Of a stretch of 64,000 nucleotides of DNA, positions 2,405-56,548 are shown one piece after another. The notes beneath the pieces are model-generated. The model made no database searches and was not told the origin of the DNA. It worked only from the letters and a program-made list of their open reading frames with translations. Source of the stretch: Burkholderiaceae bacterium (lineage in GTDB: Bacteria > Pseudomonadota > Gammaproteobacteria > Burkholderiales > Burkholderiaceae_C); contig SCRU01000059.1 in assembly GCA_004323695.1 (NCBI GenBank), forward strand, positions 1 to 64,000, in the 5' to 3' direction. A program made the translations under genes and the position numbers. The stretch's first letter is position 1; every line of letters begins with the position of its first letter.

Positions 2405-4531
<2,127 letters not shown>

Positions 4532-9211: not shown

Positions 9212-9799
9212 GTGAGCTTGATAAGCGTCAAAACCTTGGATTTGGTCGATGCAGCCCTTGACTGGGCGGTCATCGTCGCCGAGCACGGGAGTTACGACCC
9301 GAACAAGCCAGAGCACGTTGCGCATTTCCTTGAATGTCGCAGTGGGCATCCGATGCACCAGCAGGCTCGGTATTCCGAGCGGTGGGACCACGCCGGCCCG
9401 ATCATCGCACGTGAAGGCATTGACTTCCATCAGATCAAGCACCACCCCTACGGAATCTATGAGTACCGAGCAGACAGAGCGGCGCTACCAGGCGCTGTGG
9501 TAGTGGCACGGCCAATGTTGCAGGGCCCTGGGCGCTGGGTACGGGTTCCAAAGCCGCCAGGTCCCAACGAAGGTAAATGGCTGGCACGAATGGCTGTCGA
9601 CCATCACCCCTTCGGTTGGTCAAAAAACGACTTCATGAGCCCAACCCCGCTCATCGCGGCCATGCGTTGCTATGTCGCGTCGAAATTTGGGGAATCAGTA
9701 CAAGTGCCAGAGGAGCTATTGAATGATGCCAGATCAATTCAGTTGTCTGATGAAGTAGTTTCAGAGAATGCGGAATCGCCCGCCGCGCCACGGCCGTAA
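9212..9799 (+). CDS. DUF2591 (NinX-like) family protein
   Basis: YSERWDHAGPIIAREGI... and SPTPLIAAMRCYVASKFGESVQVPEELL resemble DUF2591; ends AAPRP. Confidence 0.65.
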   Translation: MSLISVKTLDLVDAALDWAVIVAEHGSYDPNKPEHVAHFLECRSGHPMHQQARYSERWDHAGPIIAREGIDFHQIKHHPYGIYEYRADRAALPGAVVVARPMLQGPGRWVRVPKPPGPNEGKWLARMAVDHHPFGWSKNDFMSPTPLIAAMRCYVASKFGESVQVPEELLNDARSIQLSDEVVSENAESPAAPRP

Positions 9800-16606: not shown

Positions 16607-17884
16607 CTAACCCCTTGGCGCCCCAACAGGCTCATCCTCTGGAACATCATCGCGCAGCGTGGAAACGCCCTGCCCCGGCTCTTGGGCTTGAATGGTTGCA
16701 CGGCTGTCCCAATTCACGAGCTCCTCCTGAAGCCAGTCCAGGTAAAACGGATCCTCTATCTCATACTCGCCTCGGCCCTTGGAGACAACCAGCTGAATGT
16801 CGTTGCTCATCAGGCGGCGCAACGATCCCTGGATCTGCGCTGGCGTGGGAGTCATACCGATCTCGGCCTTGAATTTGGCGCGCGAAGGTGCGGAAAAGAG
16901 CTGAAGAACCTTGGGATTGCGGCCGTCACGATGCTCGATCGCATCGACCACAATCTCGCGTAGCACAGCCAGGTCCAGCACGGAGAGCTCCGCAAGGCGC
17001 TGACGCATACCCGAGTTTTCCCCCGTCGCCTGCGCAGCCTTTTGGGCAAACGCGACAATGTCGGTGGCGTTGGTCTGGATCATGTCCATCACGGCGGTCC
17101 AGAAGATTCGCGGGTTCCGATCGGTCAGCGCAAAAGCCTCACGCATGTGCTTGAGGCTCAGCTTAGGGACGCCTCCCATGATGCGGTCGATGTTGAGCCG
17201 CCAGTGTTCCAGGAAGGCATCTCCAAGGGGCGGGAATTCCTGCTGCTGGGCGAAGTTGTAAAGCGGTGACTTGATGCGGCTGAAGATCTCGGTCAGGCGC
17301 GATTGAGATGACCCCGTGAATACCGAGCAGACCTTGTCTCGGCGCTCGTCCAGCAGCGTGCGCAGCGATCGGATGAAGGTCTCGTGTTCAGGCTTGAGCG
17401 CCAGTGTCTGTACTTCGTCGAAAACGAAGAGAATCTTTTTCCCGCCATGCTTGCACACGGCATCCGTGAGCTGGCGCAGATTGAACAGGATCGATTCCTC
17501 GGCCTGGGGCTTGTCCAGTGAGCCTTTGACGTCGAGCTTGGCGACGCCTATGTTCACCCCGAAAGTCACGTCTGCCTTGCCGCGTGACATCGCCTCACGC
17601 ATCTTTGCAAGCAAGTTGGACTCTCCTGCCGCACGCAGGATCGCATAGCGCATGCTCAGAGCGGGCGACTCGTTGTTGTCCCAGAAGTTGACATAGATGG
17701 GGAACAGCCCGGCCGCATCCGCAGCAGGCAGGACGTCCTTTGTCATGAACTCCGTCTTGCCTTTGCCGCGCGGGGCAAACAGCACCATGGAGTGCGCACC
17801 TACGACCTCGAACATCCGGATGTAATGCTGGGCCAGGTCGGTGCGCGGCCAGTGCCAATCGACGGGTTTGCGGGCGGTCGCCAT
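16607..17884 (-). CDS. AAA-type ATP-binding protein; ends GAPRG
   Basis: MVLFAPRGKGKTEFMTK Walker A-like, KKILFVFDEVQTL Walker B; 13-nt gap to DUF262 gene. Confidence 0.82.
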   Translation of the reverse strand: MATARKPVDWHWPRTDLAQHYIRMFEVVGAHSMVLFAPRGKGKTEFMTKDVLPAADAAGLFPIYVNFWDNNESPALSMRYAILRAAGESNLLAKMREAMSRGKADVTFGVNIGVAKLDVKGSLDKPQAEESILFNLRQLTDAVCKHGGKKILFVFDEVQTLALKPEHETFIRSLRTLLDERRDKVCSVFTGSSQSRLTEIFSRIKSPLYNFAQQQEFPPLGDAFLEHWRLNIDRIMGGVPKLSLKHMREAFALTDRNPRIFWTAVMDMIQTNATDIVAFAQKAAQATGENSGMRQRLAELSVLDLAVLREIVVDAIEHRDGRNPKVLQLFSAPSRAKFKAEIGMTPTPAQIQGSLRRLMSNDIQLVVSKGRGEYEIEDPFYLDWLQEELVNWDSRATIQAQEPGQGVSTLRDDVPEDEPVGAPRG

Positions 17885-35102: not shown

Positions 35103-35585
35103 ATGGCTAACGTTGACCAAGGCAAGAAGGCGCTCATTGCGGCCGCACTCAAACAGGTCGTCCCTGCTGGGTGGAAGTATTCCCTCTCCGTAGACCGCCA
35201 CAGTACGATCGTCATGACGATTTCGGCCGCCCCCGTGGACTTTTTCGAGGTTGTGCACACCAAACGGAAGGCCCGCAACCCCGAGTCCAATCGCGCATCG
35301 GGCAATATGTCGCTCAACCACTTCCACCTGGGTCAGGTGTTTGATGGCGAGCTCCTGGAAGTTTTCAAGCGAATCACGGCTGCCCTCAACACCGGGAACC
35401 ATGACAGGAGCGACCCCATGACCGATTACTTTGACGTTGGACATTACGTCGAAATCAACGTAGGACGCTGGAACAAACCGTTCGTGTGCACGGCTCCCCC
35501 GCATACAGCAGAGACGGTCGAATCTGCAACTGAGTATTTCCGCGATGAGGATGGGCAGTCTTCATCCGAGACCCCGCGCGGATGA
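35103..35585 (+). CDS. hypothetical protein; ends ETPRG
   Basis: MANVDQGKKALIAAALKQVVPAGWKYSLSV...SSSETPRG. Confidence 0.6.
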   Translation: MANVDQGKKALIAAALKQVVPAGWKYSLSVDRHSTIVMTISAAPVDFFEVVHTKRKARNPESNRASGNMSLNHFHLGQVFDGELLEVFKRITAALNTGNHDRSDPMTDYFDVGHYVEINVGRWNKPFVCTAPPHTAETVESATEYFRDEDGQSSSETPRG

Positions 35586-35631: not shown

Positions 35632-36318
35632 ATGTCATACGACGCCCGAGTCACATTTGAAGCTTGCATTCGCGATGACGTCACCCGCGAGCAAGTCGCA
35701 GCGGCGGTTCGCCCGCTACTGGACTATTCCGGCACGGAGCTTCGTGTCACAGAAGACCCCATGGCAAGCAAGATGGTCGCTCTCGAAGGGGGGCTGCTCA
35801 TCGTGTCGATTGATGATGCTGTTGGTTACTCGTTTCAACAAGAAATTTTCCAGCCAGTTGTTCAAGCTGTCGGGCTTCTGGTCAGCGAGCCATTCGAGGC
35901 TTGCCTGGAGAACCAAGACACCGGCGACGCTGACGAACGGTATATGACCCTGATTGGCGGGCCCAAGGGAATGATCCCTGAATACCTTTCAAAGTGTACC
36001 AAGGAGGAGATCGACGGCATGCTCTCTCGGATCGTCTTGCCGCCGGGGACCGGTGGCATTTCCATTGACGAGATGGCACACACCAATTACGTTCGCCTCT
36101 CCACCATCGCGAGTGGTTCAGGAGATCAGGAGCCGGTCGACCGGTTTGTCGTGAACCTGGACGGGCTCGTTCTTGACGAGCACAAGCGTGGTCGGATCGC
36201 AAGGCTCACAGCCTTGCTGGCACGAGAAATAGCAAGCGAGGAACACTCCATCAACTTGGCCAGTGCTGTCGACCAGGAAAGACCAGTCGATGAAACAGCG
36301 CAATACCCAATGGGGTAA
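35632..36318 (+). CDS. hypothetical protein
   Basis: MSYDARVTFEACIRDDVTREQ..., SD-like gagaggag upstream. Confidence 0.6.
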   Translation: MSYDARVTFEACIRDDVTREQVAAAVRPLLDYSGTELRVTEDPMASKMVALEGGLLIVSIDDAVGYSFQQEIFQPVVQAVGLLVSEPFEACLENQDTGDADERYMTLIGGPKGMIPEYLSKCTKEEIDGMLSRIVLPPGTGGISIDEMAHTNYVRLSTIASGSGDQEPVDRFVVNLDGLVLDEHKRGRIARLTALLAREIASEEHSINLASAVDQERPVDETAQYPMG

Positions 36319-42284: not shown

Positions 42285-43796
42285 TCAGGGCCTCACAGCC
42301 GGTGCTTGCGCCGGTGAACCGCCATGCAATTCATCATGGTCGCCGCTCAGTCCGCTCATAGCCACAGCCGCTTCGATGACATCCTCGCGCTTAGCGTATT
42401 CGGTACATAGACGGCCGGGCTCCGGCCTGACACCGACCCGCCCTAGATCGAGGCGGTCGGCATCCCAGCAAGCCTTTACCAGCGCATCCCCTTCGGTCTG
42501 GCCGTTGCTGTGCAACTCACAGGCCTTGGCCAGGGTCTCGATGTCGCCTTCAGACAGGAAGCCAAAAAGATCGCCGCGGTGCTCAAGCACAAAGGCGCCG
42601 GCCCTTGGGCCATGATCCGGATCCACCCCGTCATCCTGCCGCTGGCTGTCGTGCACCAAAGCAAAGATGTACGGCACCAACGGATCGATACCCAGGTAGC
42701 GAGAAACAGCCAGCGAATGCTTTGAAACCCGGTCCCAGTGATCCGGGCCGTGGAAGGTGCCACAAGCTTCGTGGTCGTAGTTTGCCTGCACGTGCTCTTG
42801 AATCGCCGCGATGGCCTCCTGGTGCTGACGAATGCTGGACATCTCCCCGTCACACAGCATTCGAAGCCGATCGGCGCTGAGAGCCTTGAGGTATTGCTCT
42901 GCACTGTCTGAAGGCCGGCGCCACGCCGCCGGCGCGTAGAAAAACTCGCTCTCATCGGTTCCCGCCCAGTAAACATCGGATGGGTGCACCATGGTCAGAG
43001 ACTTCACCTCGAATGGGCCGTCCGCGTGATTTAGCCTGACGTGCATCTTCGCGTATTCACCGCGAAGCGCTACCCAGTCGCCTGGTAAGACCTCGAACTT
43101 CTCGGGCATGCCGCGGTAGATCGACTGCGAGGCGCCGGTGACGCCCATCTTCTTGAAGTTTTCAGCGGGGACGACCTGGTGCACACGATCGAGCCTGAAT
43201 TCATCATCCAGGCTTCTCAGGCGGTTTATCCGCTCCAGCACGCTCGGTTGCTTGCGCTCCAGCCATCGCCTCACAGCCTCCCAAGGCTGCTGCGCGACTC
43301 GGGCGGCCAGTTCCTCGCCCAGGGTCGCCAGACGAATGACCTTGCGCTCCGAAGTGACCCACACTGGCACCCGCTGGTGATTCGTGCCGTCCGTGCAGTC
43401 GAGCACGCGCACTGCGTCGCACTGGTCCAGAGCGATGCGAAACAGTGTTTTCCAGCGATCCCCACTACCGGTGCCCTCATAGTCGTACAGATCTCCGCAC
43501 TCAAGGTAGCTCCAGGCATCACGCGGCTCGCCGCTGTACCGGCAGGTCCAGTCGTCGAATTCGGCCGTCAGCTCTTCGACAACCGCCTTGTGCCTCGGGT
43601 CATGCGGGTCGGGCTGCGTCAAATCGAGCACTTGCTCGCCCTGCAATACATAGGCGACCGGATCGCGACCAGACGCATAGAGTTTGGCCTGGCCAAAGTC
43701 CTCGGCAAAGTACCATGGGCGGGTCCACCCACCAGCTTCACGCAGCTGATCGTAGTTATCCTCGCCTCGGAAAATAACAGGGGAGATATCGCGCAT
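42285..43796 (-). CDS. multidomain protein: ART-like motifs plus C-terminal HD hydrolase-like domain; ends APAVRP
   Basis: VIFRGEDNYDQLREAGGWTRPWYFAEDFGQAKLYAS; SIYRGMPEKFEVLPGDWVALRGEYAKMHVRL; FHGPDHWDRVSKHSLAV...FALVHDSQRQDDGVD. Confidence 0.6.
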   Translation of the reverse strand: MRDISPVIFRGEDNYDQLREAGGWTRPWYFAEDFGQAKLYASGRDPVAYVLQGEQVLDLTQPDPHDPRHKAVVEELTAEFDDWTCRYSGEPRDAWSYLECGDLYDYEGTGSGDRWKTLFRIALDQCDAVRVLDCTDGTNHQRVPVWVTSERKVIRLATLGEELAARVAQQPWEAVRRWLERKQPSVLERINRLRSLDDEFRLDRVHQVVPAENFKKMGVTGASQSIYRGMPEKFEVLPGDWVALRGEYAKMHVRLNHADGPFEVKSLTMVHPSDVYWAGTDESEFFYAPAAWRRPSDSAEQYLKALSADRLRMLCDGEMSSIRQHQEAIAAIQEHVQANYDHEACGTFHGPDHWDRVSKHSLAVSRYLGIDPLVPYIFALVHDSQRQDDGVDPDHGPRAGAFVLEHRGDLFGFLSEGDIETLAKACELHSNGQTEGDALVKACWDADRLDLGRVGVRPEPGRLCTEYAKREDVIEAAVAMSGLSGDHDELHGGSPAQAPAVRP

Positions 43797-43806
43797 AGAT
43801 CGCCAG

Positions 43807-44628
43807 TCAGCCGCGGGGGGCACTTTGGGTATGGGTTGCTTCGCCCTGATCATCCCCGACATTCTTGAAGTCGCGGACGTATCCGGCAGCGATCGAAGCC
43901 TGGCGCCAAGCTTCCATCTCGGCGGCTCGCTCCCGTACGGCCGGAGCAACAAACTCCTCACAGCCTTCCTCGATCCTGAGCAGCTCGTATGGGCTGAAAT
44001 GCTCGAGGGAAATATCGGCCTTGGCGCGCGCCATCATGGCAACGCCAACTGCCACCGGATTCAGACATTGCTCCATGAGGAGTTGTCCTCGATCGCCAAA
44101 GAGAAGCCATCCGTGGGTAACCACTGGTGGGCGCCCATTAGGGGCTGGCTTGTCTCTTACGTGCATGACGCGAACCAAGGTGGTCTTCTCGTCAAATCCA
44201 TCCCTTGTCAGGTGATCGAGATAATCCCGAATACCGTTGAGTACAAACAGGTCCTCGGAGGAGTTGTACTTGCTCTCATAGACCTTGTTTAGATCGAACG
44301 CCCGCAAGTCACCAGGCTTGGCAACGACCAGCCCGTTGTTGCCCACATCCGAGTGAGCCCGGATAAAAGATGAGCTTTGGATGTCGGACATGACGTCGCC
44401 CGGCATAAAGCCACCCACCCTGTCAACCATGGCGTCGATGCGTTTGTTGCCGATTGGCTCACGCCGGGCAACTTTGCAGGCCTGCACAACAACATCCTTG
44501 TGCTTGTTGCGCCCAGAGCGAATGTCGCAGAGCCACTTGGCGGCCGTATCCACGGCTGGCTCGGACTTGTCAAGAAATCGCACAATCGGCGAAGAAAGCT
44601 GCACGTACGCGGCGTTAATCAGATCCAT
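43807..44628 (-). CDS. uncharacterised protein, paralogue of 44649..45416; ends SAPRG
   Basis: TTLVRVMHVRDK...VVTHGWLLFGDRGQ shared with neighbour; SD GAGG before ATG. Confidence 0.75.
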   Translation of the reverse strand: MDLINAAYVQLSSPIVRFLDKSEPAVDTAAKWLCDIRSGRNKHKDVVVQACKVARREPIGNKRIDAMVDRVGGFMPGDVMSDIQSSSFIRAHSDVGNNGLVVAKPGDLRAFDLNKVYESKYNSSEDLFVLNGIRDYLDHLTRDGFDEKTTLVRVMHVRDKPAPNGRPPVVTHGWLLFGDRGQLLMEQCLNPVAVGVAMMARAKADISLEHFSPYELLRIEEGCEEFVAPAVRERAAEMEAWRQASIAAGYVRDFKNVGDDQGEATHTQSAPRG

Positions 44629-44648
44629 AAATACCTCTGAAAAACCAA

Positions 44649-45416
44649 TCACCCGCGCGGCGCAGCCATGACCGTATCAGGCATGCGGTTCTGCCTGACA
44701 CGATCTTCTACTGCGCTATCCACGAACACCTCCACTCCATCCTCGATTTTAAGCAAGTCCCGACAATCGAAGCGCTCGAAGGAGAGATCGGCCCTTGCCC
44801 TGTCCATCATCGCGAGGCATATGCGAGAGTGGCCAATCATGACCTCATGACGGATCTGCCCGCGCTCGCCGATCAAAAACCATCCATGAGTGAAAACAGG
44901 GGACGGATGAGCATGCCTTGTATCCTTCTCGCGTAGATGCATCACGCGAACAAGTGTGGTCCCTTCATCGAGCCCACTCGCGTTACGAGTGGTGGTGGCG
45001 TAGCGTTCAAGGCGTTCCTGGATCTTGTCCAGGGCAAACAGGTCATCGACACTATTCCAGATGCTCTCCATCGCAGGCTTTAGATCGGATTGGCGTAGGC
45101 GGCCCGGCTCGAAGAGACGGCCATTGCACTCGGTCTGCCAGTAGGGTCGAATCATTTGTGAGACTTGAATATTGGTTGACCAGTTGCCACTGTGAAATCC
45201 ATTTTCCTTTTGTAGCATAGCGTCGACACGCCGGACTCCAACACTTGGCCGCTCTTGAACCTGGCAGGATTGCACAAGAACTTCTCTGTGCTTGAGTTCA
45301 CCATTGCGCGTGCCATCAAGCCAGCTCGCCGCTTCGTCAAGAGCAAGTCGATCTGTCATGATGGATTGCCCAAACTGGGGCGCCAGTTGGGTAAATACGG
45401 CATCTATGCGGCCCAT
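44649..45416 (-). CDS. uncharacterised protein, paralogue of 43807..44628; ends AAPRG
   Basis: GTTLVRVMHLREKD...VFTHGWFLIGERGQ. Confidence 0.75.
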   Translation of the reverse strand: MGRIDAVFTQLAPQFGQSIMTDRLALDEAASWLDGTRNGELKHREVLVQSCQVQERPSVGVRRVDAMLQKENGFHSGNWSTNIQVSQMIRPYWQTECNGRLFEPGRLRQSDLKPAMESIWNSVDDLFALDKIQERLERYATTTRNASGLDEGTTLVRVMHLREKDTRHAHPSPVFTHGWFLIGERGQIRHEVMIGHSRICLAMMDRARADLSFERFDCRDLLKIEDGVEVFVDSAVEDRVRQNRMPDTVMAAPRG

Positions 45417-45418
45417 GG

Positions 45419-46420
45419 CTATCCCCCGGTAGGCGCAGGCTGCGCAGACATCTCTTCAAGCAACGGGCCAAATGGATCTACCAACTCATGAGCCACGTAG
45501 CGCGCAGACAATGCCCGGAGATTGTCGATGACATTTTCGTTCTCAAGATCAGACCAGAGAACGGTTCGTGCTGTTGCCACCCGTTCGGGTGCCGACATGA
45601 CTTTCAGGAATTCCTCCTCGAAAGGATGTAGCCACTCGCCATCGCTGCCGGTCAAGTTGAAGACGGTGGCCATCTCCAGAACACGCTCGAGCAAAGCCTC
45701 GTCGGATTCATCGGCAATACCAGTGTGGCCGAACTTCGCAACCTCAATCCGCCATTCCTTGCTGTGCGCGTCCGCATCGTCTTCACTGTAGACATAGGCG
45801 TCCAGCAGTTTCCCGCGAAGACCATCACTGAACAAAATATGACGATCAATGCGCGTCGCATTCACAGCCGACATCAGCCGGCCTTCCAGCTCTTCAAAAA
45901 GCTTTGATCCTTTCGGCGGAGAGGCAAGCCCCATTTCGCGCACCACCGCGGCTAAAATCCGATCGCGGAACTGCTTTTCTTCCTGCTGATCCAGAATGCG
46001 CTTGGCCTGCACAGGATCGCCACCAGCTTGCGACAGCGCCTCGCCAGCTCGTTTGCGTTCGGCGTGCTTGTCCTCGATGGCGCCGATCAGACCCTGAATC
46101 TTCTGCACTTGCTCCTGCGCATAGTCCACGCCGTCAACGACGCGGACATCCATCTCTGGATAGAGCGCTTGGACGACCTTGCTCGCGCTATCGTGTCGCA
46201 TGAACAGGGCAACTTCCAGATCATGACCGAACTGCTCCAGTTCGTAACGGTCATCATTGGCCATCGTCAAGACACGATCCACGTTGTCGACGACGATAAA
46301 CCGCTCGCCCGACAGAGACAATTTCCCACGTAGAGCCAAATTCCCCCATTGATAGGCAGCCCGTTTGAGAATGTCGACTTCCTTTTGGTGATCAGGATCC
46401 AGCTTGTAATCGTTGCTCAT
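45419..46420 (-). CDS. uncharacterised protein; ends APTGG
   Basis: 333-aa ORF; C-terminal half resembles that of 46471..47502. Confidence 0.7.
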   Translation of the reverse strand: MSNDYKLDPDHQKEVDILKRAAYQWGNLALRGKLSLSGERFIVVDNVDRVLTMANDDRYELEQFGHDLEVALFMRHDSASKVVQALYPEMDVRVVDGVDYAQEQVQKIQGLIGAIEDKHAERKRAGEALSQAGGDPVQAKRILDQQEEKQFRDRILAAVVREMGLASPPKGSKLFEELEGRLMSAVNATRIDRHILFSDGLRGKLLDAYVYSEDDADAHSKEWRIEVAKFGHTGIADESDEALLERVLEMATVFNLTGSDGEWLHPFEEEFLKVMSAPERVATARTVLWSDLENENVIDNLRALSARYVAHELVDPFGPLLEEMSAQPAPTGG

Positions 46421-46470
46421 GTTCAGTCCTTTTCCTCTGGAGTGTTTTGGTCGAATGGTTCAAGCGGGCC

Positions 46471-47502
46471 TCAGCCGCGGGGCGGCTCGGCCGATTGAGT
46501 TGTTTCCTCGTCGGCCATCAGGTCCGAAAATGGGCTCTCCTTGCCGTGGGACAACAAGTGCCGATGGATGGCACGGAGCATCGCGCTTTGGCACTCTTTT
46601 GGCGTCGATCCGATAGCGGTCCTGATGGCCGTGATGCCGGCTGCGCTGGTCAAAGATGCCATCAGCTTCTGGACGGGATCCGTGCCCCAATCCATGCTGT
46701 TGAAAATGAAGCCCGGATCGCTTCTCATCAGCATGTCGCAGATCTCTTCGTCGGTTTCACCGCCATCGACTTCAAAGCCGTTATCGATGAGGAGCGACTG
46801 AATGTCGCGCCGCTGCTCCACATCGAAGATGACCAGCCTGTCCAAGCGAGTCGATTCGATCGCCTCGCCCAGTTTTAGACGAAAAGCAGCACTATCAGCC
46901 GATCCCCATTGCGGCGCACACTCGGGGCCCATTGCTACCAAAGCGGCCGTATAAACGCGTTGGAGCAGATCCTCCTTCTCAGCCGCCCTGTCCACACTCA
47001 ATTCCTTTGCTTCGACCCACGACACCCAGCGGCCGCGAGCGCTCGGGTTTTCCGTCATGAAATGTTCCGTTTCCGAATCGTGGTAAAGCGCGGCCTTTGC
47101 CGGGTCCGTTGTGTGTGGCGATCCTGCAGTCAACCTCTGATCGGCGAGATACCCTTTGCCCGGCACATTGAAGGCGCGCAGCTCAAAGATCACACCATCA
47201 ATGGGGATCTTTCGGTTGCCACGAACCTCTTGGGCATACGCAAGCGCTGCCTCTTTCGACGGAAGATCGGCAATGCATTGCGCCAGGCCATCGTCATGGC
47301 GGAGATACACCGAGCACATGGCCAAGGGCCCGTCAAGCGGGGAAGTGACAATGCGCGTCAGAAAATACTTCCCGTCCATCTCTTCTTCGATGGCGATGGC
47401 TTCGACCTCAATGGCCCTGAAGCCCTTCTTCGGGACATCGCCGATATCGGCATATAGCTTCCATGGAACCTGGGGCGCCGTTTTGGTAACTGCTGCTGGC
47501 AT
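46471..47502 (-). CDS. uncharacterised protein; ends EPPRG
   Basis: 343-aa ORF. Confidence 0.7.
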   Translation of the reverse strand: MPAAVTKTAPQVPWKLYADIGDVPKKGFRAIEVEAIAIEEEMDGKYFLTRIVTSPLDGPLAMCSVYLRHDDGLAQCIADLPSKEAALAYAQEVRGNRKIPIDGVIFELRAFNVPGKGYLADQRLTAGSPHTTDPAKAALYHDSETEHFMTENPSARGRWVSWVEAKELSVDRAAEKEDLLQRVYTAALVAMGPECAPQWGSADSAAFRLKLGEAIESTRLDRLVIFDVEQRRDIQSLLIDNGFEVDGGETDEEICDMLMRSDPGFIFNSMDWGTDPVQKLMASLTSAAGITAIRTAIGSTPKECQSAMLRAIHRHLLSHGKESPFSDLMADEETTQSAEPPRG

Positions 47503-47516
47503 GATTCAGTCCTTGT

Positions 47517-48008
47517 TCAAGCACGCGGGGCGCGGCCTTGTGCCTGTTCGGCTTCCCACTGAAAAATTTTGTCTCGAACCGACGTTGCGATGGCGGCGTG
47601 GTCCATCAAATGCACACGCCTGACAATCTCCTCGGGCATGCATGTTCCAACCTGTCCCGTGAAGTTGTAAGGAGACCACTGTCCAAGGAAAGAACCACCA
47701 GGCCCTGTCACTGTCATGAGCAGGCCGCATGCAGGCTTGTGTTCATCTCCCTCTTTCTCTTCGAGAGCAGTGAAGCCACGTTCATCACCATCCGTGAGCA
47801 GGAGCTCGATCGCAAAGGGTGTTTCAGCGCCGGCGCGATGGATCAGGATGCAGACTCCGCGCTCGACGTCGAGGTCGAGCTGCTCGACATCTTCGATGTC
47901 TTCGCCTTCGATGCCAAGTCGGCGCAGTTCCTTGTAGACGCCAATCATGGCGATCTTCATCGCCGGTACTGCCACGCGTTCAAACTTTTCGTACTTCTCG
48001 TTATTCAT
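47517..48008 (-). CDS. uncharacterised protein; ends RAPRA
   Basis: MNNEKYEKFERVAVPAMKIAMIGVYKELRRLGI... Confidence 0.65.
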   Translation of the reverse strand: MNNEKYEKFERVAVPAMKIAMIGVYKELRRLGIEGEDIEDVEQLDLDVERGVCILIHRAGAETPFAIELLLTDGDERGFTALEEKEGDEHKPACGLLMTVTGPGGSFLGQWSPYNFTGQVGTCMPEEIVRRVHLMDHAAIATSVRDKIFQWEAEQAQGRAPRA

Positions 48009-48028
48009 GGTCAAGTCGCCAGCGGTGG

Positions 48029-48454
48029 TCAAACGTGCGGGGCATTCATGGCCGCTTCTTCGTAGTCTTGCCGCGGTTGATTCGACATGCCGAGATCAAG
48101 CTTCGTGAAGCCACAGCGATCTACCAGCAATACGGCCCCATCGTCGCCGACCATGTAGTCGCCAACCGATGTGCTGCGCCGCGGGTTGCTAGTCAACAAG
48201 TGCACCCCCCTGTTTCGCCCCCAATCCCACTCGATGTGGTTCGTTTTTGCATAGGCTTCTTCCGGGTCATCGCAGTAGTTCACATCGGCTACGGCCTGAT
48301 AGCTCAGGCCAAGTTCAGTCCACTCATGCGGCGCCGCAAGAACCTGCTCGACACTGGAACGATCGGCACGAGTCAAGCGGAAATACATGTCACGTGTCAG
48401 CTCGTTTTCTGCGCCGGCCGGGCTCATGCAAAGGTGATATACGCGGATAGTCAT
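48029..48454 (-). CDS. uncharacterised protein, possible YodL-like domain; ends NAPHV
   Basis: MTIRVYHLCMSPAG...RSTSVGDYMVGDDGAVLLVDRCGFTKLD. Confidence 0.6.
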   Translation of the reverse strand: MTIRVYHLCMSPAGAENELTRDMYFRLTRADRSSVEQVLAAPHEWTELGLSYQAVADVNYCDDPEEAYAKTNHIEWDWGRNRGVHLLTSNPRRSTSVGDYMVGDDGAVLLVDRCGFTKLDLGMSNQPRQDYEEAAMNAPHV

Positions 48455-48456
48455 GA

Positions 48457-48480
48457 TTCGCACCGTAGTATTGTTGCGAA
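48457..48480. promoter_or_regulatory. operator-like palindrome TTCGC-N14-GCGAA
   Basis: TTCGCaccgtagtattgttGCGAA, abuts start codon of 48029..48454. Confidence 0.55.
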
Positions 48481-48642
48481 CATTATTCCGCGAATAATCA
48501 AGTTTTCGGAATTTTTTTGTGCCTAAATCGTGCAATGCTGTGGTCAATTGGCACCCTCTTGCCTGAAACAAGGGTTCGCCACTGCGTCCTTGAAGCGGAA
48601 TCCAGGTCTTCGCCGGCAGATGACGGCAGCCCGGCACGCATC

Positions 48643-49881
48643 TCAGCCTCTCGGCGCCGACGCGGCCTCCTCTTGCACGTCCAGTCCCTGCAGTGGAAAT
48701 CCGACGCCGAAGTCATTGACAACCACCATCCCGTGGTCCTGCAGTGCGTCATTGACCAGGGCATAAGAGCGGCCGACCTTGTCCGCCAGCGGGTCGTTCA
48801 CACGAATGATGCGCTGGCGGCTGCCTTCGCCTGCGTCATTCTTGAAGTCGTATGTCGACTCCTGCATCCACACTTCCCGTAATTTGTACGAGAACATGAG
48901 CAAATCGGCACCAGCTTCGGCCCCAGTCTTGGGGCTCTCGTAAGTGATCTCGAAAAATGGATTTTCTTTTGGAAACAGCGCCCTGAGTTCGAATGGCGCC
49001 GAGCGGCGCATCTGCTCCTGAACTGGACGATCGTTGTAGACCTTTACAGTTGAGGCTCTGATCTTGCTCAGAAATTCCAGGGGCGTCTCGAAAGGCCTGG
49101 CACAAAATACTGCTGCGCCAGCCAATCCAGGCTTACGCAAAACACACTCCTTGACCTCATCGGCGCTGAGGCCCGCAGGCAGGCGAACAGACGTCAGGTT
49201 TCTTTCTCCATACGTCAACCAGTAGGTGACTGGCTCAGCCTCCGCAAGGTCGGGCCCTGCAGGAGCGGTCCTGGGGCTCGCCGCCGGCAGCCCGTTCCCC
49301 TGTTGAGCCTTCTGTAACATCTCTTCGATTTGCGCCTGGGCGGCTTCCTTGGTTGCGTAGAACATGTCCTGTGTTCCACGGCACAACTTACCGTCCTCGT
49401 CCTTGAACAAGACGGAGATCTTGTCGCAGCCCAAGCCCCTGGAGATGTTCACCTCCTGCAATTGCACAGGCCTTGTGAGAGCCTCCAAAATAGCACCATC
49501 ACCATCCCTTTTGAGAGTTATCTCGAAGGCCTGGATTGGCAGCTTCATGGTGACCAGTTCCACATTGGTCATGTGACCTACTTTAGTTTTTATTGACTCA
49601 GCCATCTCACCCCCTGGAGCAGACGCGGCAGCTTGCCCCAAATACTCCAGAACACCTTGTTCCTGCAATTGCCTGGCTATTTCCTCGTATGCGTATCTGG
49701 TTTGCACGTCCAGTTCATCCCCATACAAAGCGGCTTTTTCGACTGCATCGCGATCGATCCAGTACAAAATCTCTGCCGCCAAAGATTCGAACGACTTTCC
49801 TTTGCTGTTGGCCACTCGAAGGCTGTGCTGACGCAAGACCGCTTCGACATCTTCCTCGTTGATTTCAAATGCTCGTCCCAT
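48643..49881 (-). CDS. uncharacterised protein; ends SAPRG
   Basis: MGRAFEINEEDVEAVLRQHSLRVANSKGKSFESLAAEIL... Confidence 0.7.
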   Translation of the reverse strand: MGRAFEINEEDVEAVLRQHSLRVANSKGKSFESLAAEILYWIDRDAVEKAALYGDELDVQTRYAYEEIARQLQEQGVLEYLGQAAASAPGGEMAESIKTKVGHMTNVELVTMKLPIQAFEITLKRDGDGAILEALTRPVQLQEVNISRGLGCDKISVLFKDEDGKLCRGTQDMFYATKEAAQAQIEEMLQKAQQGNGLPAASPRTAPAGPDLAEAEPVTYWLTYGERNLTSVRLPAGLSADEVKECVLRKPGLAGAAVFCARPFETPLEFLSKIRASTVKVYNDRPVQEQMRRSAPFELRALFPKENPFFEITYESPKTGAEAGADLLMFSYKLREVWMQESTYDFKNDAGEGSRQRIIRVNDPLADKVGRSYALVNDALQDHGMVVVNDFGVGFPLQGLDVQEEAASAPRG

Positions 49882-49919
49882 AAATTCCCTCCAACTTGTA
49901 GAAACAGTACCGCTGCGAC

Positions 49920-50588
49920 TCAGCCGCGTGGAGAATCCATCAACTGAAGATTTGGCGCTTCCGATTGCCCCCCTAACTCCCGGTTGAGAAGCTGCGAGGC
50001 CAAGTCAATTCGCCGAGTCTGAGTCCGCACCCCCACGGAGCCGTGGCGGTGATGGATTCGATCGGTCTTCATGTCCCATAAAATGTGGTTCTCGGACTGA
50101 AAGTCGGGCGTTCCTGATTCTTTGAGCACATCCCAGGTTTGCTGCGCGATATATATCACCGCGCGTTCGAGCATGCCAATGAGTCGGCCTTCGATGCCGC
50201 TTGCCTGCCAATCAATTTCTGGATCGGCTTGGTCATCAAACATCCCGATGGAGCCGATGCTGGGGTTACCGTCGGCGTCGCGATCGATGCGAACGCTCAC
50301 CCTGAGAACTTCTTCACGCAAAAAGTCGGCCGGCAATACCGAATAGTCGTCGAGCATTCCGGGCTCCAGAATCTGGATCATCTCGGAGCTCGCCATCAAA
50401 TCTGATCTCTGCTGTGCACTCATGCACCCCCAGGCCGCCCGTAGGGCGTCTTGTAGGTCACCGACCTCGTGATCAGGATCCTCGTCTTCGCCGTGCTTTT
50501 GCGCGGACCGGATGACCGTCTCTATGCGTTCATCCGGGGTGCAATCCAAAGTGACCAGGGTCTTGGAATCCGTGGGATTGATATTCAT
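49920..50588 (-). CDS. uncharacterised protein; ends DSPRG
   Basis: MNINPTDSKTLVTLDCTPDERIETVIRSAQ... Confidence 0.7.
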   Translation of the reverse strand: MNINPTDSKTLVTLDCTPDERIETVIRSAQKHGEDEDPDHEVGDLQDALRAAWGCMSAQQRSDLMASSEMIQILEPGMLDDYSVLPADFLREEVLRVSVRIDRDADGNPSIGSIGMFDDQADPEIDWQASGIEGRLIGMLERAVIYIAQQTWDVLKESGTPDFQSENHILWDMKTDRIHHRHGSVGVRTQTRRIDLASQLLNRELGGQSEAPNLQLMDSPRG

Positions 50589-50601
50589 TTTGTGTCCTCG
50601 T

Positions 50602-51321
50602 TCAGCAACGTGGGCTCGTTGTTTCTGACTCGTCAAGTCCCATGCGTTCCGCGAATTCCGCGCGCATCTCGGTCGGATCGGACAGGGCATAGCGAGCCAT
50701 CAACCGCGGGATTTCCTCAAGCTTGATGTTTCCGCTTTGGATCAAGTTGTCAATGAAGTCGGCGATTTGCTTTTCATCGAGCTCCGCGCCAGATGCATCA
50801 GCAAGTTTTTGACTCTCTTGAAGCAGCGGCCCCAATGAAAGGACCCGGTGCTCATCATTGAGACGAGTAGGCAGTTCAGGCATGATGACGAAGAAGGCCG
50901 TAGCATCCTCAAGATCACCCCACTGCTGGTCAGCTTCGTTCCAGTAGGCGCCTTCGGTCAGGGAATACAGCACCTTGGCCTGAAACGGCAAATCGGGCAG
51001 ATCCATCGCCGACTGGTTGCCCCGCAGCCACGCGCCGAACTCATCCACCAGGTCGGCGCCGTTGACATCTTCGTCTGTTTGGCCAGCCAAATCGCCAAAA
51101 CGGCTGTAGAAATCATCAAGAACAGCGAGAGGCTCCCCTTGTCGTGTAGAGACGACGGGCAGATTCCTTTTGATCTCACTTTTTCGACCTCGTATCCATT
51201 CACTCAGGTCATCGACCAGGTCCGCGGCGTCAATACCGCGGTCAGGGAACTGGAAGTCTCGAAACCTCTCGTAAAGAGAAACCAGGATCGTACGGGCGAT
51301 CGCATTCTTTGATCTGGACAT
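50602..51321 (-). CDS. uncharacterised protein with internal repeat; ends TSPRC
   Basis: RFRDFQFPDRGIDAADLVDDLSEWIRG / RFGDLAGQTDEDVNGADLVDEFGAWLRG. Confidence 0.7.
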   Translation of the reverse strand: MSRSKNAIARTILVSLYERFRDFQFPDRGIDAADLVDDLSEWIRGRKSEIKRNLPVVSTRQGEPLAVLDDFYSRFGDLAGQTDEDVNGADLVDEFGAWLRGNQSAMDLPDLPFQAKVLYSLTEGAYWNEADQQWGDLEDATAFFVIMPELPTRLNDEHRVLSLGPLLQESQKLADASGAELDEKQIADFIDNLIQSGNIKLEEIPRLMARYALSDPTEMRAEFAERMGLDESETTSPRC

Positions 51322-51354
51322 GGTGTTCCCTTCCTATTGTTGAGTGTTGCTTCC

Positions 51355-52359
51355 TCAGCCGCGCGGCGCTTCTGCAGCAATTTGCCCTGGCTCTTGCTCA
51401 TCCTGTTCCAAAGCCACGCCACTCGAGTCCGGCCCAACCCCCTTGACGGCGATCTCCGCACGCTTGCGAAATTCGTAAACACCAGCTCGAGCACCGGAAA
51501 TGGCCTCGGTCAGTGCCTCCTGAGCTCGGTCCAACTCTTGAGCGCAGACCGCTTCCCCACCCTCTTCTTCGATCTTCACGAGTAACTCATCTCTTGCGTT
51601 GAGGCATTCAAGAAGTCGGCCTACATCCTGTGCCATGTATTCACCAAATTCGACCGCCCGGCGAAGGCCGCCTTGGTTTTGAACGGGCTGCGTAGCAGGA
51701 GCGGGGGGTAGCGGCGGGGCCTCTTGGGCGCCTTGCGCAGCGGCCCTGGAGTCGACACTGTCTCGTATGGATCCGATCAGGTCATCACACAACCCGTTGA
51801 GCTGTGCGCTGGACATGGCGATTCGGACAAGGCCCACGGAGGAGTTTGCCGAGGTATTTTCCGGTTCGACGCGGCCGATCGCGATTAGCGGATTTCCATT
51901 CTCTGCCGTCAGGCAGTATTCCCGCAGCTGCATCCAATCGAATTTTCGAAGCTCAATGGCTGTCTTGCCGCCTCCCGCATCATTTGATCCGTCTTCAAGC
52001 GGCCAATTTCTCGCCTTTACCAGGATCGACGCCGCTTTTGCGGCAAGCCGTTCGTGAAAGCGTCGCATCGATTCCTCGAAATAAATTTCGAATGGCCCGC
52101 TCCACTCCCGAATCCACGGCGGAGCGTGAGTGACGTGGCGCAGATCGTCAGCCCCATAAGAGGCATCCTCAAGGCCCCCCTTCGCGCGCGCTTCGACGAC
52201 TGCATGGGTGACAAAAAACTCAGTGGGGCCCTCTGGATCTACCTCGATGGCGTGATCGTTCTGCCAACCCTGCGGAACAAAGGTCGCAACAATGCCGAGC
52301 GCTGGCAAGTCAGCAGGGCGAAAGTTTTGAACTGGGACTCGATCAGAAAAGGTTGCCAT
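51355..52359 (-). CDS. uncharacterised protein; ends EAPRG
   Basis: 334-aa ORF. Confidence 0.7.
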   Translation of the reverse strand: MATFSDRVPVQNFRPADLPALGIVATFVPQGWQNDHAIEVDPEGPTEFFVTHAVVEARAKGGLEDASYGADDLRHVTHAPPWIREWSGPFEIYFEESMRRFHERLAAKAASILVKARNWPLEDGSNDAGGGKTAIELRKFDWMQLREYCLTAENGNPLIAIGRVEPENTSANSSVGLVRIAMSSAQLNGLCDDLIGSIRDSVDSRAAAQGAQEAPPLPPAPATQPVQNQGGLRRAVEFGEYMAQDVGRLLECLNARDELLVKIEEEGGEAVCAQELDRAQEALTEAISGARAGVYEFRKRAEIAVKGVGPDSSGVALEQDEQEPGQIAAEAPRG

Positions 52360-52455: not shown

Positions 52456-55131
52456 ATGGCAATCCAAAACGATCTTGACGCTGAGCAATCCGAGAACAGG
52501 CCACGTCAACCCCTGCGTGGATTCACGCGAACTGCGACGCCAGTCCCCGGTGCAGCCGCCACCCCTCGCGCTTTCGGGTTCGGATTTCAGCGCCCTGAGC
52601 CCAAACCGGTGAAGCCGGCTGGTTTCGGTTTCAACATCTCCTCACTCCCAACGCTTCCAAAGGACTCGGACGCCGGCGTCGCCGAGCTGATGGAGGGTTT
52701 GTTTCCGGATGATGGCGAGCGCCCCGCCGCAAAAACACCCACTGTTTCGGCCGACGTGACTCACGTTGGCGTCATCGAGCGTGTTTCCATCTACTCAGAC
52801 TGGGCGGTTGGCTCCATGAACACCCAGGAGCGCGAGTCGTTGAAGATCACGGGCACAGCCGTGGCGCACCTGAAGGAGGGCTGCGAATACGTTCTGACGG
52901 GCCGCATGAAGACCCACCGGGAATATGGCGAGCAACTCGAAGTGATCAGCTTCGAGCCGCACATCAGGCCGGATGAAGCCTCCATTTTGAAATTCATCGT
53001 GAGCAACTTCACCAATGTCGGCAAGAAAACGGCTGAGCGCTTCGTCGCTCAAACGAAAGAGTCTGGCGGACAAGAAGGCCTGGAAGCCCTGCGCCTCAAA
53101 TTGATCTCTCAACCTTGGGAAGTGACCTTCGAGTCCGTATCGACGCGCTCGACGTCCTTCGCCCCAACCGGGGGCGCCCAGCCCGACCCCGATGGGTACA
53201 CCAATCCAGCTGCCACCTCCGAACCTCCTGAGCTACCCTATGTGCAGCGCATGCTGGCCACCAAATTCGGAGCCCTCAGAGACCTCAAGGCGTCGGTACT
53301 CAAATTGCTTGCTACCAGCCTTTTTGCCAAGGTTCGAGCTGCCGGCAAAAGCGATGTACCGGTCACAGATGCAGCTGCGGCTTTGCTTGCGCAAGACCCC
53401 TATAGCCCAATGCGAACAATTCCAGGGTATGGCTTTCGCAGCGCAGATGCCATCGGCACTGCGATGAATATCCCGCGGGATGCCCCTGTGCGCCTGAGTG
53501 CCCTAGCCTCGTTCCTCGTCAACGACGAGTGCGAGTCAAGCGGCCATGTATACCTCAGCGAGGCTCAACTTCGGATCAGCCTATCGCGTGCCGAGCCTAC
53601 GCTGGAGCTGCAAGCACTGCTTAAATATGGCGAAGAGTCAGGAGACCTGATCCTGGTGGAAGGCAAGCCGGGCGGGCGGCGCATCTACCCAGCCGCGTTA
53701 CATGCGACCGAGCAGCGTCTGGCACACGATCTGCATGACATGCTCACCGACGGCAAGCCGTTGCTTGTGCGCCGGACCTTTGCGCAATTCAAGGCCAAAG
53801 CCATCGAAGTCAGCAAGAAACTTCTTGGCTACGAACTCGATGAGGATCAGATCAAGGCCCTCCACGGCATAGCCACCAGCGAATCCAGACTACACGTCAT
53901 CTCCGCCGGCCCGGGCTGTGGCAAGACGGCCATCATGGAGGTCTTTTCCGCCATGATGAGGAGCAAGAAATTCGAATTCACTGCTCCGACGGGGATGGCG
54001 TCAAAAGTGCTCACCAGCCGTGTGCAGCGCCAAGGCTACCACGCCAGCACCATGCATTCGCTGCTCAAGGGCAGTCCCGATGGCGGATTCAATGTGAATC
54101 GCGAGGCTCCCTTGTCATGCGACATCCTGGTAGTCGATGAAGGCACCATGCCGACCCTGCAGCTGTTCGAGGCCGCGACGGCCGCGTTGCCGCCACGCGC
54201 GCACATGATCATCCTGGGCGACCCCGGCGTCGGGCCCTTGGCCGGACAGCTCCCCTCCATAGGGCCGGGTCGAGTCATGAGCGACCTCTTGCGCCTGCCC
54301 GGCGTCGACCACCACCATCTGACGGCCGTGAAGCGCAACTCCGGCGGCATTCTCGAGGTCGTCAACGAGATCCGCGCCGGCGCGCTCAATTGCGAGGATC
54401 GAGATGGTGTGACCTTTTCCAACACACTTCCAGACGCGACAACATATTTCCCCACGGTGGCAGCGAGATACATGGACTTGATCGCCAAAAAAGGCATTGA
54501 GAACGTGGTACTGCTCATATCGCGCCGCGCCGGCGAGCAGGATGTCCCGAGCTGGTGCTCCGACTATGCCAACACCCGCTTGCGCGACTTGGTGAACCCA
54601 GGTGGGCCAAAAATCCCAGGCACGCAGCTACACATCGGCGACCGCATCATCATTCGGGACAACATGGTGCTCGGCAAGGATAAAGATGGTGAAGATATCC
54701 GCGTGGTCAACGGCGACAAGGGCACCATCGCGGAATATCACCCCTTTGGCGATCCCAAGAAGAAGGGGGCGCAAGCACTGACCCTGATACTCGATGACGA
54801 ACGGACCATCATGTTTCCTGGGGATTCAGTCAATGAGCTTCAGCTGTCATACGCGACAACGGTTCACATGAGCCAGGGCAGCGAATACAAGGACGTCATG
54901 CTGGTCATGACCCCGGGTAGGCCCTCCTTCATGAACCAGAACATGTTCCTCACCGGCGCCAGCCGCCCGCGCGAGCACCTTTGGGTCTACGGCAATGACG
55001 CCGATCTCAAACGCATCGCCGCCACCCCGCTGCCGGCACGCAATACTTCTCTTGTCGAGTTCACGACCGAGATGCTGCAAGAGACGCTGCGCCAGATCGA
55101 ATCCCACGCCGATGAAACGCCAAAGGTCTGA
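52456..55131 (+). CDS. RecD-like ATP-dependent DNA helicase
   Basis: LHVISAGPGCGKTAIMEVF, DILVVDEGTM, ILGDPGVGPL, QLSYATTVHMSQGSEYKDVM, LTGASRPREHLWVYG. Confidence 0.9.
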   Translation: MAIQNDLDAEQSENRPRQPLRGFTRTATPVPGAAATPRAFGFGFQRPEPKPVKPAGFGFNISSLPTLPKDSDAGVAELMEGLFPDDGERPAAKTPTVSADVTHVGVIERVSIYSDWAVGSMNTQERESLKITGTAVAHLKEGCEYVLTGRMKTHREYGEQLEVISFEPHIRPDEASILKFIVSNFTNVGKKTAERFVAQTKESGGQEGLEALRLKLISQPWEVTFESVSTRSTSFAPTGGAQPDPDGYTNPAATSEPPELPYVQRMLATKFGALRDLKASVLKLLATSLFAKVRAAGKSDVPVTDAAAALLAQDPYSPMRTIPGYGFRSADAIGTAMNIPRDAPVRLSALASFLVNDECESSGHVYLSEAQLRISLSRAEPTLELQALLKYGEESGDLILVEGKPGGRRIYPAALHATEQRLAHDLHDMLTDGKPLLVRRTFAQFKAKAIEVSKKLLGYELDEDQIKALHGIATSESRLHVISAGPGCGKTAIMEVFSAMMRSKKFEFTAPTGMASKVLTSRVQRQGYHASTMHSLLKGSPDGGFNVNREAPLSCDILVVDEGTMPTLQLFEAATAALPPRAHMIILGDPGVGPLAGQLPSIGPGRVMSDLLRLPGVDHHHLTAVKRNSGGILEVVNEIRAGALNCEDRDGVTFSNTLPDATTYFPTVAARYMDLIAKKGIENVVLLISRRAGEQDVPSWCSDYANTRLRDLVNPGGPKIPGTQLHIGDRIIIRDNMVLGKDKDGEDIRVVNGDKGTIAEYHPFGDPKKKGAQALTLILDDERTIMFPGDSVNELQLSYATTVHMSQGSEYKDVMLVMTPGRPSFMNQNMFLTGASRPREHLWVYGNDADLKRIAATPLPARNTSLVEFTTEMLQETLRQIESHADETPKV

Positions 55132-55133
55132 AC

Positions 55134-55820
55134 ATGATCATCGACAGCCCCACCGGCCTTGGCATTGAAATGGCGCGGTTTCCAACTTTCGCGGTCGAAT
55201 TTGCCCTGTCGGAATCGCCCCTGGACCGCAAAACCTATGACGATCTCTTCGGCCCTGAAATCGGGAAGGTGATGGGCCATGTAGGATGGCATTACAAAGG
55301 AATGCCGATAAGGATCGACGCGCTTCTCGACCAAAAGCCAGTCGCAAGCGCCTGGGCAGGAGCAATCAGGACTCGGGACAAGCTCGAAGGCGTGAACATC
55401 TCCTACGCTGTTGGGTCTGCATGGCGGGGCAAGGGGCTTGCCGCGCTCTTGTCATATTGCGCCGTGGCAGAGCTCGCCGCAAAGAGTGACTTCGAAGTTG
55501 GTGGCGACAACCAGGGCGGATTTGTCAACATCCAGGCGCGCGACAGCAATCGTGCCTCCCTGTTTGTGGCACAGACAATGGGCGTTCCCCGCTGCGAAGA
55601 CGCTTGTTTCCAAGTGGAATTGCAGTCAGGGTTGGTTCAATACTCAGGTTTTCGTGAACCCATGGACAGTTTTTTACATCGATGTGTCCCGCTGATCCAC
55701 CAGCGCATTCATGGCTATCGACCGGGTCAGCTGAAGAGCGAGCGCGATCTCGATGAGGGCTCTCAACAGCGCTACGATGAGCCCACCAATAACGCCAGCG
55801 CGGAAGCGTTCCGCGGCTAG
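55134..55820 (+). CDS. GNAT-like acetyltransferase; ends EAFRG
   Basis: ISYAVGSAWRGKGLAALLSYCAVAEL and ARDSNRASLFVAQTMGV. Confidence 0.65.
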   Translation: MIIDSPTGLGIEMARFPTFAVEFALSESPLDRKTYDDLFGPEIGKVMGHVGWHYKGMPIRIDALLDQKPVASAWAGAIRTRDKLEGVNISYAVGSAWRGKGLAALLSYCAVAELAAKSDFEVGGDNQGGFVNIQARDSNRASLFVAQTMGVPRCEDACFQVELQSGLVQYSGFREPMDSFLHRCVPLIHQRIHGYRPGQLKSERDLDEGSQQRYDEPTNNASAEAFRG

Positions 55821-55863
55821 GAACTAACTGCCTTTTTACATCGACACATTGACACATTCGCGC

Positions 55864-56322
55864 ATGAATGCGTATGCTGGTCAACGAGGAACATTGCCCA
55901 TGACGTCCTACCCCATACCGCCCCAATCCAACCACCAAACCACGCCCGATCTGACAGCGGTCATTCAGGCGCGCAAGGAACGTCTCGCAATTGAACTTTT
56001 CGGGATTGACGACGTTTTGAGTCCTCGGGCCCGCATATTGCGCACCAGTCAATCCCTTCTGGAGAAAATCGAGTTGGCGCACCGGGACAATGCTACCTGG
56101 GTTGATTTGCAGTTCGAGGGGTATTTCGATCCTGTTGAAAACTCACTTTTCAGGTCCACAGCTTACGATCGTGATCTGGATTGCCACAACCGGGCACTGG
56201 AAACACTTGACGAATGCATTGCCTCGGCCCGCAATGCCGGAATCGATGTCCAAACCCAAGTAATTACACCCAATGACGATGAAGCACAAAAAATCCGCCA
56301 TGGCGAACGTCACGCGGGATGA
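55864..56322 (+). CDS. hypothetical protein
   Basis: MNAYAGQRGTLPMTSYP... Confidence 0.55.
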   Translation: MNAYAGQRGTLPMTSYPIPPQSNHQTTPDLTAVIQARKERLAIELFGIDDVLSPRARILRTSQSLLEKIELAHRDNATWVDLQFEGYFDPVENSLFRSTAYDRDLDCHNRALETLDECIASARNAGIDVQTQVITPNDDEAQKIRHGERHAG

Positions 56323-56545
56323 TCTCCAAAGCCGAATGCAATCGGCCAACACGGTGTTCCAGGCCATGCGTTCGCGCCAGCCTGGCCCTCGAATCGGCAT
56401 GCTCAACAAGACGCCGATCTACGAATACATCCAGGGGGAAGACGGCGAGCGGTGGCATTTCGACGGCGGTATGTACCCTGGCCGCAAACTGGCTGACAGT
56501 GACATCCTGTTGAAGAACGCCGCCGTCTACGCATTGGCGGGCTGA
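56273..56545 (+). CDS. hypothetical protein
   Basis: 90-aa ORF immediately upstream of primase. Confidence 0.55.
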   Translation: MTMKHKKSAMANVTRDDLQSRMQSANTVFQAMRSRQPGPRIGMLNKTPIYEYIQGEDGERWHFDGGMYPGRKLADSDILLKNAAVYALAG

Positions 56546-56548
56546 GAA

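Follow-up and report, generated by a model that had tools for sequence, protein, structure and literature searches.

The stretch analysed here, 64,000 nucleotides of Burkholderiaceae bacterium DNA (the window), comprises bases 1-64000 of contig C139 (SCRU01000059.1), which is 235,300 bases long and belongs to an assembly of 3.8 Mb and 203 contigs (GCA_004323695.1). Many soluble proteins encoded on this contig and on related megaplasmids end in one and the same short tail, which, judged from the sequences, is a modular signal covering roughly the last 25-30 residues, composed of an acidic stretch and a nearly fixed Pro-Arg-Gly (PRG) end, with the consensus [E/D]-A-P-R-[G/A]-COOH. That this tail is a genuine peptide tag under selection is considered almost certain. 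An earlier note on this DNA had listed eight coding sequences of the window ending exactly in PRG, as well as the near variants AFRG, SPRC, APRA and APRP; the eight were found at exactly the coordinates that it gave, and the variants were as described.

The whole of C139 was read, and genes were called with a simple dicodon model. The background consisted of 400 kb taken from elsewhere in the assembly, on other contigs presumed to be chromosomal, with 382 genes. In the window, 8 of 75 predicted genes had PRG ends, against 0.029 expected from the frequency of internal PRG (p = 8e-18). The enrichment test that the earlier note had suggested beyond the window showed that the excess spans the whole element: C139 encodes 12-13 proteins with a PRG end and about 22 whose last residues are PR[GAC] or a similar variant, and Pro at position -3 (counted from the C-terminus) with Arg at -2 was present in 21 genes, where 0.77 were expected (p = 1.8e-23). 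Among the 382 background genes, no PRG or PR[GAC] end was present. A tail scorer trained on the other plasmids and used with a threshold of 6 flagged 18 of 255 genes on C139, 16 of 160 on plasmid 3 of Variovorax RA8 and 12 of 126 on plasmid 3 of Variovorax WDL1, and none of the 451 controls.

The PRG tails were spelled with all four Pro, all six Arg and all four Gly codons and with all three stops; since every codon is used, selection acts on the peptide. This bears on the alternative that the peptide has no function, and that a DNA-level element at gene ends (e.g., CGCGGCTGA) spread by recombination, or a codon or composition bias, produced the ends. CGC GGC TGA was indeed the most frequent spelling, but the full range of codons and stops, the lack of an excess in the other contigs and the internal PRG frequency, which predicts 0.03 ends in the window and not 8, render this alternative extremely improbable. 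In particular, a copied DNA repeat was rejected on the basis of codon diversity, and a composition artefact by comparison with the internal PRG frequency, the other contigs and a cargo region of the RA8 plasmid described below. Descent from one ancestral gene was likewise rejected, as the 22 tailed proteins of C139 fell into 19 homology clusters after their last 25 residues had been removed. The bodies are thus mostly unrelated, as had been claimed, except for the pairs 43807/44649, 48643/51355 and 9212/69652, whose members are related to each other.

Comparison with homologues indicated that the tail is kept where the surrounding sequence diverges and that it can be removed. In orthologue pairs of C139 and Variovorax of which one or both members are tailed, the bodies were 50% identical and the linkers (-24 to -4) 24%. 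Counted among the pairs listed, the tail was retained in about two thirds of those whose C139 member is tailed; the ligase with a WGR domain, for instance, ends in QDQPRA on C139 and in LEDRPRG on RA8. The tailed protein encoded at 35103..35585 (+ strand; 160 amino acids, end SSSETPRG) matches the whole of phrog_10415 with its residues 1-131 and carries 29 residues beyond this domain, up to the final SETPRG, whereas its homologue in a Klebsiella phage has 131 amino acids and stops at the domain end. Two NinX-family proteins, encoded at 9212..9799 (+ strand; Pfam E 5e-15, appended extension ending in AAPRP) and at 69652 of C139 (end TSAPRA), are extended to APRP and APRA, respectively, and phage and Cupriavidus NinX proteins stop short of the extension. 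Because these homologues stop at the domain end, the tail is in these cases an appendage gained by the proteins of this element. The signal sits in the last 30 or so residues and can be missing from homologues outside the element; the homologue comparison suggested earlier likewise found homologues outside it without the tail. Selection on the C-terminal peptide, as first proposed in the earlier note, was therefore borne out by the enrichment, the upkeep in diverged plasmids, the use of all codons and the removable extension. This evidence shows selection and not the partner, a circumstance that also suits a selected peptide with some other role, such as control by phosphorylation or processing, anti-restriction masking or chaperone binding; nothing specific favours any such role, which is considered quite improbable.

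The anatomy of the tail was described from 55 tailed proteins of three plasmids. As the pattern used to select them fixes the three terminal positions, information comes only from the mix of letters there and from everything further upstream. Position -3 was Pro in 54 of the 55 proteins, -2 was Arg (51) or Lys (4), and -1 was Gly (37), Ala (11), Cys (3) or Val (3); Ala (28) or Arg (7) was found at -4 and Glu or Asp (22) at -5. Glu peaked at -12 to -9 and accounted for 14% of the residues upstream of the terminus in tailed proteins vs 8%, and hydrophobic residues were fewer. The mean net charge of residues -28 to -5 was -4.0 in tailed proteins, -0.6 in untailed proteins of the same plasmids (p = 1.7e-13) and +0.5 in the other contigs. 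The acidic linker before PRG is probably disordered. No membrane-like segment was detected in any of the 55 tailed proteins vs 14% of the others (p = 5e-4).

Short C-terminal tags that feed proteins to proteases are common in bacteria, and a C-degron or stability tag setting protein lifetime through an adaptor or protease, for example in early proteins that vanish after establishment, would agree with this commonplace and with a tail that has been added to soluble proteins of unrelated families. Known C-degrons of bacteria, the ssrA tag among them, have a hydrophobic or Ala terminus. The Pro-Arg-Gly/Ala end of the present tail is unlike these, its strong acidic lead-in would be left without a role, and no tag-associated plasmid protease was noticed, although no systematic search was made; a degron is accordingly regarded as improbable.

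The tail is shared by other plasmids of the same backbone. The gene order HU, RecD-like helicase, CHC2 primase and tailed orphan cluster is common to plasmid 3 of WDL1, plasmid 3 of RA8 and C139. PRG ends were present in 12 of 160 genes of the RA8 plasmid (Pro-Arg excess, p = 2.5e-23) and in 10 of 126 genes of the WDL1 plasmid (p = 1.3e-18), and the tail density on both Variovorax megaplasmids was equal to or above that of C139. The WDL1 tails were also read from the public gene annotation and are therefore independent of the gene caller used here. A 50 kb cargo segment of RA8, with copper resistance, nonribosomal peptide synthetase/polyketide synthase and transport genes, had no tails in its 47 genes. 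Achromobacter pA82 and Cupriavidus p1 are more distant, with the same backbone and a weaker enrichment (8 vs 0.85 and 6 vs 0.59 expected, respectively), and their endings include QERPRG, YERPRG, ESPRG and RPRG. No tails were present in a 69-gene stretch of a Pseudomonas aeruginosa megaplasmid. Among seven YqaJ loci in named genomes, those of Variovorax and of one relative known as a metagenome-assembled genome were tailed and those of Cupriavidus and Pusillimonas were not. A survey with the YqaJ marker yielded no further carrier among 401 genomes of the family, 400 of the order and 369 of the class, and a YqaJ search of IMG/VR gave a single match, remote and partial. The family of tail-bearing elements is rare.

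Some receptor encoded by the element probably reads the tail. Every tail-rich plasmid carries an IncI/Dot-Icm-like type IV secretion system (T4SS) with a DotM/TrbA homologue. The systems of the relatives are of the I type (type IVB), with annotated DotA/TraY, DotB-type ATPase, DotC-like, DotD/TraH, DotG, DotH, DotI and IcmT proteins. On C139, matching genes are arranged in a similar order and include a DotL-like coupling protein with TrwB/TraG-D domains and, in the trbA position (156418-157926), a DotM homologue that matches PDB 6exe (E 3.7e-16). Genes of a type IVB pilus are likewise present on C139 and the relatives. In Legionella, C-terminal peptides that are acidic and rich in Glu are bound by DotM, and translocation of the proteins bearing them requires it; the same authors described the function of TrbA as unknown and suggested that, in other systems, DotM proteins and different tails may have evolved together (Meir et al., PMC5802825). 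For F-type conjugation, delivery of plasmid single-stranded DNA-binding protein (SSB), ParA, ParB and PsiB has been reported in the pED208 conjutome (PMC8406263), and the T4SS substrates have a variety of signals, either C-terminal or internal (PMC11288057).

By analogy with these systems, soluble plasmid proteins, among them a recombination nuclease, a helicase, a ligase, a methyltransferase and many orphans, would be recruited via the tail to the coupling complex of the plasmid's own I-type conjugation machine and delivered to the recipient along with the DNA. In this scheme, the DotM/TrbA-type subunit would recognise the acidic part, and either it or a partner would recognise the terminal PRG. 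The favoured explanation, a bipartite signal by which this T4SS would acquire soluble plasmid proteins and pass them to recipients, is put forward tentatively, as something close to an even prospect. The T4SS is proposed as receptor because of the acidic lead-in, the soluble cargo, the likeness of the cargo to proteins known to be transferred and the presence of DotM; the protein encoded directly downstream of the coupling protein of RA8, which ends in NDRPRG, was also counted in favour. The case for the T4SS as the tail receptor and for translocation of the tailed proteins is circumstantial, and translocation by a T4SS, as suggested in the earlier note, has stood to that extent, on the I-type system with its DotM homologue, the acidic lead-in and the exclusively soluble cargo. 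The structural genes of the T4SS and pilus were without tail, apart from Cupriavidus DotA.

Several points weigh against delivery by the T4SS. Legionella signals end in hydrophobic residues, unlike the Arg-Gly end of the present tail, and the DotM homologue has no marked excess of basic residues in its C-terminal region (41 Lys + Arg, 38 Asp + Glu), where basic patches of DotM would be expected to bind an acidic peptide. Cupriavidus DotA, which ends in AMPRG, is a membrane protein. Orthologues of the proteins encoded at 64509 and 55134 have no tail. In the model IncI plasmid R64, no PRG-like tail was found in a stretch including the relaxase NikB and the leading region, and a signal general to type IVB systems was rejected on this ground. 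Finally, the relaxase, the obligate substrate, was not found: the models PF03432, PF08751 and PF07514 had no match on C139 or on four relatives (NZ_LR594664, NZ_LR594691, NC_014642 and NZ_CP080768), and had matches on other contigs of the assembly. The relaxase of these plasmids may be of a new kind.

Two orphans accompany the transfer genes. The one 3' of the DotL-like coupling gene, without tail on C139 (163185-164309) and ending in NDRPRG on RA8 (L064, 38376-39590), is possibly a transfer protein or adaptor. The other, of 630 amino acids, is encoded beside dotD/dotC (C139 95010-96911), has no Pfam or NCBIfam match and is a candidate for an unrecognised transfer gene; its RA8 version (L016, 8273-10156) ends in QRAPRMAA, a possible variant tail.

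The recognisable domains of tailed proteins belong to DNA metabolism (YqaJ recombinase, RecD2 helicase, WGR/ATP-dependent ligase, methyltransferase). This bias is explained equally well if the tail docks its clients to a plasmid-encoded intracellular hub, such as a replication, recombination or partition factor or a condensate, in the manner of the SSB tip reversed; the acidic lead-in with a short terminal motif recalls that tip, and all tailed proteins are soluble. Docking to a hub does not explain why ParA/ParB, the replication initiator, the DnaB-like helicase, the primase and the topoisomerase of the same plasmids are without tail; besides, many tailed proteins are orphans of one operon and no candidate hub was identified, and this explanation, although the strongest of the rivals, is judged rather unlikely. 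An AlphaFold2 model of a tailed candidate single-stranded DNA-binding protein had a predicted local distance difference test (pLDDT) score of 45, too poor to judge the fold. In more general terms, and whichever the receptor, the tail may represent a new intracellular address tag, a possible but doubtful proposal: a megaplasmid family would mark about one tenth of its backbone proteins with an acidic stretch and PRG, read by its own receptor for a plasmid-specific structure or for transfer choice, and the tag would drift by lineage. By lineage, the tag is APRG on C139, R/APRG in Variovorax and ERPRG in Achromobacter.

The tailed genes of the window are largely grouped. From about 52.4 kb, two divergent operons extend, that of the tailed orphans (42285-52359) and that of RecD/primase (52456-58456); the pair is kept in Variovorax and may be an early (leading-region) module. 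The tailed operon, on the - strand, is opened by the orphan at 51355..52359 (end IAAEAPRG), followed by those at 50602..51321 (ETTSPRC; orthologue ends GPGPRA and EAGPRG), 49920..50588 (LMDSPRG; WDL1 orthologue GERPRG) and 48643..49881 (AASAPRG; RA8 and WDL1 orthologues ERPRG), the last of these related to the first. The best start of the 49920 gene lies at about 50588, so its overlap with the 50602 gene is an artefact of taking the longest open reading frame. Further along are a gene with the degenerate tail NAPHV (48029..48547; WDL1 orthologue AELPRC), tailed orphans at 47517..48008 (GRAPRA; WDL1 orthologue QATPRG) and 46471..47502 (SAEPPRG; WDL1 orthologue APAPRC), an orphan with the degenerate tail QPAPTGG (45419..46420), and the paralogous tailed orphans at 44649..45416 (TVMAAPRG) and 43807..44628 (HTQSAPRG). 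On the + strand, divergent from this cluster, are a RecD2-type helicase (52456..55131) ending in DETPKV, with Variovorax orthologues ending in RPKG, and a protein with the variant tail AEAFRG (55134..55820), for which Pfam lent no support to the label GNAT-like given in the earlier note. The tailed protein of 425 amino acids at 16607..17884 (- strand, end EDEPVGAPRG), previously labelled an AAA ATPase, does match a Pfam model (AAA/ATPase_2-like), but weakly and below threshold (25.2 bits vs a cut-off of 33.2). The gene at 35632..36318 (+ strand) has the variant tail AQYPMG, and its RA8 orthologue ends in ASAPRG. A GyrB-like topoisomerase subunit (2405-4447) and an SNF2-type helicase (5624-7408), both plasmid-borne, are without tail.

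Beyond the window, tailed genes of C139 are located at 64509 (GPVPRG), 67059 (DVSPRG), 80523 (AAAAPRG; seen in the first gene call and lost in a later one), 87661 (AAAAPRA), 88522 (YqaJ recombinase, AEMPRG), 114686 (1097 amino acids, AQAPRG), 189682 (the WGR and ATP-dependent DNA ligase, QDQPRA), 200549 and 218161. With defence-system models, the sole match among the tailed proteins was the WGR domain of the ligase.

Linkers of several C139 proteins, three of them tailed, share another short motif, [AGR]FGF or FGFGF, with 8 occurrences in 69,830 residues vs 5 in 119,185 residues of the other contigs. It was located in 52456-55131 (residues 39-59), 64509-65744, 114686-117979, 137842-138711, 147753-148550 and the primase at 56549-58456 (residue 510). 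Two Cupriavidus proteins join this type of motif with the tail region (RFGFGARPRT and RFSFAARPRP). It may be another docking motif. Elsewhere on C139, an AAA protein weakly similar to the anti-phage ATPase IteA is encoded beside a large DUF3584 protein (205266-211456), a possible defence module, and a RecG-like helicase (872 amino acids) is followed by a DndC-like PAPS-reductase-domain protein (617 amino acids) at 128631-134072.

In open-access papers, the scope of the literature search, neither the PRG tail nor any C-terminal tag on proteins of these plasmids was found described, and we know of no counterpart of a plasmid-wide fixed tripeptide tag. The rules by which conjugation machines pick their protein cargo are not settled, and a plasmid that puts a short, fixed and removable tag on about 20 of its proteins opens cargo choice to direct testing. 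If delivery is true, the tailed proteins would be a list of what the plasmid wants in the recipient, and the tail might serve as a portable tag. With a receptor other than the T4SS, the tag would point to a plasmid-encoded sorting system, of which, to our knowledge, no counterpart has been described.

Among known systems, the substrates of VirB/VirD4 have Arg-rich C-terminal signals with a net positive charge; the present tail also has Arg near the C-terminus, but its net charge is negative and only one Arg is fixed. SSB has an acidic C-terminal tip with a short fixed Pro-Phe end, through which one hub serves many partners. The tail resembles it in being acidic with a short fixed end containing Pro and differs in that the tip is common to many clients, of 19 unrelated families, and ends in Arg-Gly and not in Pro-Phe. 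As in translocation by the F-type pED208 system, where plasmid proteins travel with the DNA and some signals are C-terminal, the signal would concern plasmid proteins; the excerpts of the sources consulted report no common C-terminal motif for that system, which is of type IVA (F) and not of type IVB (I) as here (PMC8406263, PMC11288057). From the E-block signal of Legionella Dot/Icm the tail, as a putative translocation signal, differs in its near-invariant Pro-Arg-Gly end, its bacterial DNA-metabolism cargo and its location on a conjugative plasmid. Both signals are C-terminal, acidic, about 25-30 residues long and carried by many unrelated soluble proteins (PMC5802825), and a homologous T4SS, DotM homologue included, is encoded by the plasmid.

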